This document shows positions 8,383-9,949 of a DNA stretch of 64,000 bases, piece by piece. The stretch is taken from positions 62,001-126,000 of the forward strand of contig NZ_FRCD01000014.1 in NCBI RefSeq assembly GCF_900142785.1, given 5' to 3'. The translations under genes and the position numbers were made by a program. Numbering within the stretch: position 1 is the stretch's first letter; every line of letters begins with the position of its first letter. The notes under the pieces are model-generated. The model ran no database searches. It was not told where the DNA came from and saw nothing but the letters and a program-made list of their open reading frames with translations. The stretch is from Chryseobacterium carnipullorum (lineage in GTDB: Bacteria > Bacteroidota > Bacteroidia > Flavobacteriales > Weeksellaceae).

Positions 8383-9345
8383 ATGAAAATTATGAGAAAA
8401 TTTCTGTTATCAATGATGGTATTTGTGGCAGCCCTGTCATTTAATGCCTGTAATGATTCAAACGCGGAACAGCAAATGAGTCAGAATGAAACCATCAGCA
8501 AAAATCTTACGGATCTTGGGAAAACAGTTCCGGTAGGGATAGAAGATGAAAATGGAACTTTGAAAGTATCATTTATTGTTACTGCACAGTTTTATACAAT
8601 TACCCCTACCAAAGAGAATGAAAAGTACATCAGCCTGATCAGAGAAGCGCTGAAAAACGAATCTCCTATCCAGGTTTTTATCAAGCCTAACACGCATGAA
8701 ATTGCAAAAGTAGAAAAAGGAAGCGAGGATGATATCCGGTATTTCAAATCTACTTTTACAAAAGAAGCTAAAAATGAAGCCAATAAATTAACAAGCGTTC
8801 TTCCTAACATCGCTACCCTCAACAGCATGTTTACGCTGATTAAAAACCAGGCTTGCGGTACTTCAACGGCGTCTTCACCATGCATCACCTTCAGATATCC
8901 TGTAGACGGATGCTATGCAAGAGCTCACAAAATGAGACAAATCCTGATCAACAATGGCTACGACTGTGAGAAACAGTTTGTCTACGGAAACCTGAAAGCA
9001 TCCACAGGAACTTGCTGTGTAGCCTGGAGCTATCACGTTGCGATTCTGGTAAGCTACAAAAATGCATCAGGAGTTACTGAAAAAAGAATTATTGATCCTT
9101 CACTCTTCCCTAGCGGACCTGTTACAGATACCGCATGGAGAAATGCATGCATCAATACAAGCTGCGGATCTGCCTCTGTATCCTCTTATGCCAATACAGC
9201 AGGAAATGTCTATTACAGAAGCCCTACTGCCTCTTATCTGTATGATAACAATTTAGTGAACACCAATTGTGTACTGAATATCTTCTCATCACTTTCAGGA
9301 TGCTCTCCTTCACCAGCTCCAAACGTTGGAGGCTGCGGATTCTAA
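8383..9345 (+). CDS. protein-glutaminase preproprotein (protein glutamine deamidase)
   Basis: Deamidates side-chain glutamine in proteins to glutamate. The mature part is extremely close to what I recall of the Chryseobacterium proteolyticum enzyme: Cys177 in VDGCYARAHKMR, His218 in WSYHVAIL and Asp238 in RIIDPSLF have the same 41- and 20-residue spacing as the known Cys-His-Asp triad. A signal sequence with FNACND lipobox-like end is followed by a ~110-residue pro-region (VPVGIEDENG to the TKEAKNEANK area), which in the known enzyme blocks the active site until cleaved. Eight or more cysteines suit an exported disulfide protein. An ATG at 8299 adds 28 residues before the signal sequence and is not credible; ATG 8383 or 8392 fits. 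Confidence 0.95.
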   Translation: MKIMRKFLLSMMVFVAALSFNACNDSNAEQQMSQNETISKNLTDLGKTVPVGIEDENGTLKVSFIVTAQFYTITPTKENEKYISLIREALKNESPIQVFIKPNTHEIAKVEKGSEDDIRYFKSTFTKEAKNEANKLTSVLPNIATLNSMFTLIKNQACGTSTASSPCITFRYPVDGCYARAHKMRQILINNGYDCEKQFVYGNLKASTGTCCVAWSYHVAILVSYKNASGVTEKRIIDPSLFPSGPVTDTAWRNACINTSCGSASVSSYANTAGNVYYRSPTASYLYDNNLVNTNCVLNIFSSLSGCSPSPAPNVGGCGF

Positions 9346-9415
9346 CTAACTTATACAGCTCCTGTATTTTTTTATCATCAAAAGCTGCAGGGACTGTTTA
9401 TCAAATATTTTTTCT

Positions 9416-9736
9416 ATGAAAGTCTGGACTTATCTCCTATTAATCTTATTTATGATCACATCCTGTTCCGGCAGTTCAAGTTCTCAGAACCTGACCTGGT
9501 ATAATCATTCAGTTATCACCAATGTAGCAGAAGATCCGGAAAAACCGGAAGAATTCACTCGGGTATCTATTGGCATAAGTCCTCAGATTTTTTATCTGTC
9601 TAAAAAAGCAGATGATTATAAAACTCTTCTTGAAAAAACAAGTCAGAGCCATAAAAAAGGAAAAGCATACCATATAGGTATTGAAAAAAACACCAATATT
9701 ATTAAGCAAATTAATGAAATTCCTTCAACTAAATAG
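9416..9736 (+). CDS. small lipoprotein resembling the protein-glutaminase pro-region
   Basis: A 106-residue lipoprotein with lipobox MITSCSG, 70 bases downstream of the protein-glutaminase gene. By eye its body lines up with the enzyme's pro-region: RVSIGISPQIFY versus KVSFIVTAQFY, then a Tyr-x-x-Leu helix, then IGIEKNTNIIKQ versus VFIKPNTHEIAK. The inference is that it is a free-standing pro-domain that could hold or inhibit the deamidase in the cell envelope. This has not been tested by alignment software. A strong terminator follows, so the two genes probably share one transcript. Confidence 0.75.
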   Translation: MKVWTYLLLILFMITSCSGSSSSQNLTWYNHSVITNVAEDPEKPEEFTRVSIGISPQIFYLSKKADDYKTLLEKTSQSHKKGKAYHIGIEKNTNIIKQINEIPSTK

Positions 9737-9801
9737 TTTCTTTTTTGCTCAAAAATACTGCACTGAAAAAAACTGACTAAAATAATCAGATGAACCTCAT
9801 T

Positions 9802-9836
9802 AAAATCCCCATTATGCTTTTATAATGGGGATTTTT
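9802..9836 (+). terminator. intrinsic terminator after the protein-glutaminase pair
   Basis: A 14-bp perfect stem, AAAATCCCCATTAT (9802-9815) with ATAATGGGGATTTT (9822-9835), ends in T residues. Confidence 0.9.
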
Positions 9837-9949
9837 AATTCAGCTCTGTAAAAGAAAAAGAAAATGTAAACAACACACTGATTATCAGTTATATATTTAT
9901 TATTTAGTTAATCTCTACTATTGCCATCAATTAAATCTATCAAAATTAA

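Follow-up and report, generated by a model that had tools for sequence, protein, structure and literature searches.

The window, by which we mean the whole analysed stretch of 64,000 nucleotides from a Chryseobacterium genome, encodes on its forward strand a protein-glutaminase (PG) precursor of 320 amino acids (8383..9345, +), composed of a signal peptide with a conserved cysteine (Cys23), a pro-region and the mature deamidase. We took the ATG at 8383 as its start; the list of open reading frames gives an earlier GTG. In the NCBIfam and Pfam searches the precursor matches NF040782 with an E-value of 1.6e-132 and also PF18626, and it is very close to the solved pro-PG, the structures 3a54 and 3a56 aligning to its residues 25-320. 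Alignment to the window PG places the start of the mature chains 2zk9 and 2ksv at residue 136. The pro-region (residues 24-135; 8452..8787, +) comprises an OB fold and a C-terminal helical part, and its AlphaFold2 (AF2) model matches 3a54 with Z 15.9. The tip of the active-site-covering loop is formed by Ala68 and Gln69 of the precursor (8584..8589, +), which are Ala47 and Gln48 in pro-PG numbering and are invariant in the 101 rows scored. Cys23 (8449..8451, +) stands in the lipobox-like context FNAC and is a possible lipidation site of the zymogen; a cysteine in such a context is found in 104/104 rows of the PG alignment, which leaves out the PG pieces of the three assemblies in which PG is broken (G171, G173 and G137). 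Judging from this motif, the PG zymogen may itself be a lipoprotein. The PG literature, in the sections covered here, describes a putative signal peptide and does not mention the lipobox-like cysteine.

An open reading frame of 106 amino acids (9416..9736, +) begins 70 nt after the PG stop codon and encodes a stand-alone pro-domain-like lipoprotein; the initial annotation had given this frame with the same coordinates, length and position after the protein-glutaminase gene, all of which are correct. The frame starts with a lipoprotein signal peptide (9416..9466, +), recognised in the sequence by its lipobox ITSC with Cys17 (codon 9464-9466). The bacterial lipoprotein signal (MITSC) and the invariance of Cys17 in 82 aligned orthologues suggest that the protein is lipidated at this residue. 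The AF2 model places an OB-fold core at residues 26-101 (9491..9718, +), within which residues 53-57 (GISPQ; 9572..9586, +) are the counterpart of the active-site-covering loop. The lipoprotein has no match in Pfam or in the plasmid collection, and it reaches no NCBIfam family at cut-off; the best of its matches far below the cut-off is the PG model. Among the named loci listed, the closest gene is that of C. shigense (94% identity). One member of a second genus (G220; L127 6437-7057) encodes a lipoprotein of 206 amino acids whose C-terminus bears an additional Ig-like domain, Big_14 (PF20251, E 1e-06).

In Bacteroidota, a polar or lysine residue followed by two acidic residues soon after the lipidated cysteine has been described as a surface-export signal (PMC5080379). 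The window lipoprotein reads SGSSSS after its cysteine, and the motif variants listed for its family contain no two consecutive acidic residues; this is a pattern reading, as the covered part of PMC5080379 does not define the signal for Chryseobacterium. A clear export signal is seen in neither PG nor the lipoprotein, one PG variant having two acidic residues further on, and the window holds too few other lipoproteins to serve as a control. On such a motif reading, the lipoprotein would sit on the periplasmic side of the envelope.

Between the two genes lies an RNA hairpin followed by a short T run (9356..9396, +). Its stem has 11 pairs, of which 9 have changed on both sides, and 94.2% of the cells pair in an alignment of 43 sequences, hand-picked for spread among the 75 listed of 95 distinct intergenic stretches. 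The stem reaches a covariation score of 0.301, compared with 0.167 for shuffled and at most 0.090 for slid controls. Over 101 copies the mean folding energy of the intergenic stretch is -19.2 kcal/mol, compared with -6.2 after base shuffling; the window's own hairpin is weaker (-13.3, z -2.5). The hairpin is kept in two genomes that lost the lipoprotein (G033 and G195) and in one where the lipoprotein gene has decayed (G019), and it is weak in G014, where the gene is present. As to co-transcription, the two genes are closely spaced and on the same strand, yet a covarying hairpin with a T run separates them; this stable hairpin, kept where the lipoprotein is lost, is a point against simple one-to-one co-transcription. 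We infer that this hairpin forms the 3' end of the PG mRNA and that the lipoprotein gene is reached by read-through. A second hairpin, of 15 pairs with a T-rich 3' end (9802..9835, +; fold of 9737-9850, z -4.06), follows the lipoprotein gene and is probably the terminator of the PG-lipoprotein unit. Neither hairpin was listed by a simple consensus scan, which gave no more matches than shuffled sequence did.

PG is present in 107/320 genomes of the window's family. The search for the lipoprotein gave 103 matches in the same genomes, leaving 100 intact copies after removal of a decayed copy (G019), a frameshifted one (G013) and one that is not a true copy. The latter, in G280, seemed to be a lipoprotein without PG; the match covers only residues 6-43 within a frame of 369 amino acids, and the signal-free profiles give it E-values of 540 and 150. 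In 100 of the 107 PG genomes an intact lipoprotein gene immediately follows PG in the same orientation, starting 32-80 nt after the PG stop codon in the 101 copies measured (G013 included). The initial annotation had suggested looking for co-occurrence, and held that the gene being present without PG in many genomes would speak against its proposal; the lipoprotein proved to be linked to PG, and was found without it in 0/320 genomes of the family. In three genomes (G137, G171 and G173) PG is in pieces and the lipoprotein is intact. A scan of 84,980 species, with patterns that reach close relatives only, gave 64 loci, all titled Chryseobacterium or Weeksellaceae. The lipoprotein gene is found in Chryseobacterium and in one other genus of the family. 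In another genus of the order (g3, probably Flavobacterium), the lipoprotein HMM detected no stand-alone relative at 23 loci with PF18626 genes, which represent 24 PF18626 genomes with G662 left out; at two of the loci, L198 and L200, little contig follows the gene, and L205 gave no PG open reading frame. The pro-region HMM recognised a pro-region in two g3 PGs only (L194 and L197). In this genus (L189-L191, L198-L211), the match begins close to the N-terminus, at a residue between 2 and 37, in 16 of the 22 genes matched by the PG HMM, which leaves little room for a pro-region, and these 16 genes are probably something other than secreted PG.

Four genomes have an intact PG and a missing or broken lipoprotein (G013, G019, G033 and G195), and all of them belong to one six-member clade with a support of 1.0, whose other members, G014 and G180, keep the lipoprotein. 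This implies at least three losses in the six-species clade if the frameshift in G013 is real, and the lipoprotein is dispensable in these four species. The divergent PGs of G029, G117 and G267 are also without an intact lipoprotein. G029, which belongs to the same genus, encodes many divergent PG-like lipoproteins (L131, L132 and L133), several of them in tandem, that adjoin Thiol_cytolysin (PF01289) matches and a papain-family protein. G034 (L125) has a PG, a lipoprotein and a second PG in a row, the second PG being 60% identical to that of the window; one lipoprotein may serve two enzymes there.

Where it is kept, the lipoprotein is under purifying selection: dN/dS is 0.067 for the lipoprotein, 0.096 for the pro-region and 0.025 for mature PG (214 non-independent pairs among 96 genomes, with a mature-PG dS of 0.1-0.6 and usable values elsewhere). 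In addition, of 4560 genome pairs (96 genomes, with G013 and G220 left out), 76.1% show a higher identity for the lipoprotein than for the pro-region.

The initial annotation had aligned the lipoprotein by eye with the PG pro-region, and the tools gave the same register. At this register the mean identity is 19.8%, compared with 3.7-11.4% at 16 other shifts (one residue inserted, 52 positions). The NCBIfam PG model matches the lipoprotein with an E-value of 0.0013 in the register 8-103 to 11-113, a value to which the signal peptides contribute. When an alignment of 82 of the 101 lipoproteins (frameshifted G013, G220 with its extra domain and near-identical copies left out) was compared by hhalign with one of 73 of the 104 pro-regions (without G117 and near-identical copies), the probability was 78% and the E-value 1.8e-5. 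After removal of signal peptides and linkers the hhalign score was 29.2, against at most 19.9 for 200 column-shuffled profiles and 9.6 for the reversed profile. With filters off, the pro-region HMM matched 90/101 lipoproteins at E<1 and 6/101 at E<0.01, the best at 0.0005, and 0/101 reversed lipoproteins; these E-values were set for a nominal 10,000 sequences, and the 101 lipoproteins are related and not independent trials. In the opposite direction, the lipoprotein HMM matched 7 of 107 PG sequences (104 of the family and three of g3) below E 1 and none below E 0.01. With the signal peptides kept, its matches included a g3 PG (E 0.026) and the divergent PG found in G267 (E 0.00096). Plain HMMER searches of the window's whole own genome with either the pro-region or the lipoprotein alignment (E<=10) gave no cross-match in either direction. 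A PDB sequence search with the lipoprotein returned RGS10 alone (E 0.39), which we rejected as weak. Taken by itself, this sequence evidence for kinship with the pro-region is borderline.

The fold search, which rests on a predicted model, is the strongest evidence for this kinship. The AF2 model of the lipoprotein, built from its own family only, has strands at residues 26-32, 34-39, 47-52 and 58-62, a helix at 68-81 and strands at 85-90 and 95-101, with block-mean pLDDT values of 95-99 over residues 31-100. Foldseek ranked 3a56 and 3a54 first of 350,542 PDB chains (E 2.3e-4), and VIA-align gave a Z of 11.9 and an rmsd of 1.6 A over 77 residues against 3a56, residues 24-105 of the model superposing on residues 19-95 of the 3a56 pro-region. 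In the same test the pro-region's own model reached Z 15.9, and other OB folds had Z at most 9.9 and rmsd at least 2.0 among the matches listed. Most of these other matches are toxin B-subunits and SilF, which we take to be OB folds and which share the fold only. The staphostatin (lipocalin-like) fold is not among the fold matches listed, an absence that excludes nothing. It should be noted that the fold match is not fully independent of 3a56, because the AlphaFold2 training set probably includes that structure. The model of the pro-region contains two helices, one at 92-102 and a low-confidence one at 104-107, and the lipoprotein frame ends after the last strand. Structure prediction of the lipoprotein alone had been proposed with the initial annotation, which regarded a lack of profile or structural similarity to the pro-region as evidence against its idea; pro-PG came out as the first match. 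Profile and fold similarity together support its view of a stand-alone, lipid-anchored relative of the PG pro-domain, and we regard it as confirmed that the lipoprotein is a stand-alone relative of the pro-region.

The similarity extends to the loop that covers the active site, which reads SIGISPQIFY in the lipoprotein and VSFIVTAQFY in the pro-region. Ala47 of pro-PG is reported to lie over the active-site pocket and to mimic the substrate. The structures 3a54 and 3a55 carry glutamine where 3a56 has alanine in the T-A-Q tripeptide, the title of 3a54 naming an A47Q1 mutant, and the A47Q change reportedly turns the loop into a bound substrate. DSSP assigns a five-residue loop in both models (residues 53-57 of the lipoprotein and 42-46 of the pro-region), and from this equal length it follows that residue 56 of the lipoprotein occupies the Ala47 place and that its invariant Gln57 corresponds to Gln48. 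At the Ala47 place the 101 lipoproteins have alanine (66), proline (27) or glutamine (8), giving the pattern S-[A/P/Q]-Q; parsimony on the PG tree (98 tips) counts five changes there, and the window copy has Pro56. Ser55 and Gln57 are invariant in the 100 rows scored. Residues 51-60 form the ten-residue window of lowest entropy in the mature lipoprotein, at 0.32 bits compared with 0.87 elsewhere in it. When windows of five residues are compared, LTWYN has a lower entropy (0.20 bits) than the loop (0.24). The loop of the pro-region has 0.66 bits over ten residues and the remainder 0.99, so that it is conserved above the average, but the five-residue window with the lowest entropy there is TVPVG (0.29) and not VTAQF (0.76). 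A T-N..I motif in the last strands is common to both proteins, and LTWY, DPD.P and KK are conserved features of the lipoprotein family's own, not seen in the pro-region. The pro-region loop reads TAQNF in all six species of the clade in which the lipoprotein was lost (L128, L129, L136, L137, L126 and L138) and in no other row.

What, then, might such a protein do? The reading that we favour, and consider reasonably though by no means overwhelmingly probable, is that the lipoprotein is an envelope-tethered propeptide-type inhibitor of PG; the inhibition is what we infer. Its gene would have arisen long ago, by duplication or excision, from the part of the PG gene that encodes the pro-domain, and its product would be an exported, lipidated domain on a tether of about eight residues at the periplasmic face of the envelope. 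The PG zymogen and the lipoprotein may both begin as lipoproteins in the same place, and the cut in the pro-region would free PG from its anchor; release from an anchor by pro-region cleavage has been proposed for the C10 zymogens of Bacteroides (PMC2873492). The lipoprotein would dock on PG that has lost its pro-region too early and place its S-[A/P/Q]-Q loop over the catalytic cysteine, as the pro-region does in pro-PG. Envelope proteins would thereby be spared from active deamidase, and PG leaving the cell would escape the lipoprotein. The intergenic hairpin would probably end most PG transcripts, so that less lipoprotein is made, via read-through. The C-terminal helical part of the pro-region, absent from the lipoprotein, may strengthen binding in cis. 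The clade that has lost the lipoprotein several times and keeps PG makes a vital guard role less likely.

The same data can be read differently. A trans-acting folding helper or holder would bind PG during or after export and aid its folding or membrane retention, inhibition being a side effect. Pro-regions often act as folding aids, and both the strict linkage to PG and the greater identity of the lipoprotein than of the pro-region in the genome pairs compared would suit such a role. On the other hand, PG already has a pro-region in cis, and the four species with an intact PG lack an intact lipoprotein. Moreover, active C. lactis PG has been produced by Lpp-OmpA surface display (PMC13298967), and the titles of cited references point to PG production in C. 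glutamicum and E. coli. The covered parts of these production texts mention no partner gene, and an inhibitor thus fits better than an obligate foldase. We therefore regard a folding helper as rather unlikely.

A further reading is that the lipoprotein descends from the same source as the pro-region and now serves another partner, an envelope protein or a ligand, the linkage reflecting operon history only. OB folds bind many things, and such a partner could explain the family's own LTWY, DPD.P and KK, LTWYN being the best conserved window of five residues; yet of all ten-residue stretches the one that is conserved best corresponds to the loop covering PG, and the absence of the gene from every PG-free genome among the 320 also argues against this reading, which we consider improbable. 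That the similarity is one of fold only, an unrelated OB-fold lipoprotein lying beside PG by chance, is suggested by the many OB folds at Z 8-9.9, by an identity to the pro-region of about 16-20% and by the failure of plain HMMER to find the link. Against this, pro-PG is the best of the PDB chains and has the lowest rmsd among the matches listed, the profile score exceeds all 200 shuffles with the reversed controls empty, the register peak stands alone among 17 shifts, and the S-A-Q loop and T-N..I strand motifs are shared, so that we give chance very little credence. Returning to the inhibitor that we favour, a bolder version, which we put forward tentatively and think less likely to hold than to fail, is that the two proteins make up a new type of enzyme-and-cap pair, the cap being the first propeptide-type inhibitor of a protein deamidase to stand alone on a lipid anchor, and that the glutamine-bearing copies act as a slow, self-consuming substrate that is held until deamidated and then released.

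PG is an industrial food enzyme with a solved zymogen structure, and its neighbour belongs to no Pfam family and, at cut-off, to no NCBIfam family. If the lipoprotein is an inhibitor, guard proteins of the propeptide type would no longer be confined to proteases but would serve a protein deamidase as well; the lipoprotein would also show how a Gram-negative cell lives with an enzyme able to deamidate its own envelope, and provide a way to control PG production. A natural knock-out already exists in the clade that lost the lipoprotein. In the PG papers PMC6132073, PMC9396377, PMC13298967, PMC12791059 and PMC13139226 we found, within a search of their accessible sections that lay outside most subscription papers and patents, no mention of the lipoprotein gene, and the search gave no account of such a pair for a deamidase.

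The closest known counterpart is the pro-region of PG itself (3a54, 3a55 and 3a56), with which the lipoprotein shares the OB fold, the order of strands and helix, the S/T-A-Q loop before a short strand and the T-N..I motif. It differs in being encoded by a separate gene, in its lipid anchor, in having no C-terminal helical part and no link to a mature domain or cleavage site, and also in an additional residue within the loop region or behind it, in its N-terminal LTWY and DPD.P stretch and in the varying Ala47 place. The lipoprotein model also matches the N-terminal part of FBPG, the protein glutaminase of Flavobacterium sp. 316 (8z3i), with Z 9.8 and an rmsd of 2.6 over 78 residues. The statement in the initial annotation that no pair of this kind had been described was too strong, since SpeB-Spi, which comes nearest in kind, and the inhibitors neighbouring Bacteroides C10 proteases are known (PMC2873492, PMC3462683). 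Spi, "a propeptide analogue", is encoded beside SpeB in Streptococcus pyogenes (PMC2873492, PMC3462683) and, like the lipoprotein, it is a stand-alone propeptide analogue beside a papain-fold enzyme, thought to restrain premature activity. As with Spi, the lipoprotein resembles the cognate propeptide and its gene lies beside that of its enzyme. The two pairs differ in their target, a protease in one and a deamidase in the other, and, going by the descriptions, in location, Spi being cytoplasmic whereas a lipoprotein signal is present here. The predicted inhibitors Bfi and Bti, several of them predicted lipoproteins, are encoded beside C10 proteases of B. fragilis and B. thetaiotaomicron (PMC2873492, PMC3462683). 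They likewise are small exported proteins, come from the same phylum and neighbour zymogens that have a papain fold and are predicted to be lipoproteins; however, they are described as staphostatin-like, Bfi having no significant identity to propeptides, whereas the PG lipoprotein matches the cognate pro-region. Further free-standing relatives of propeptides that inhibit the mature enzyme are the I29 proteins CTLA-2alpha, crammer and BCPI, and a SUB1 propeptide-like protein of malaria parasites (PMC4089206, PMC6993865). Unlike the PG lipoprotein, these are eukaryotic and directed against proteases. To our knowledge, they also have different folds and no lipid anchor. Propeptide-type inhibitors are thus a known kind, and what is different here is the deamidase target, the combination of a lipid anchor with a pro-domain fold, and the natural glutamine variants.
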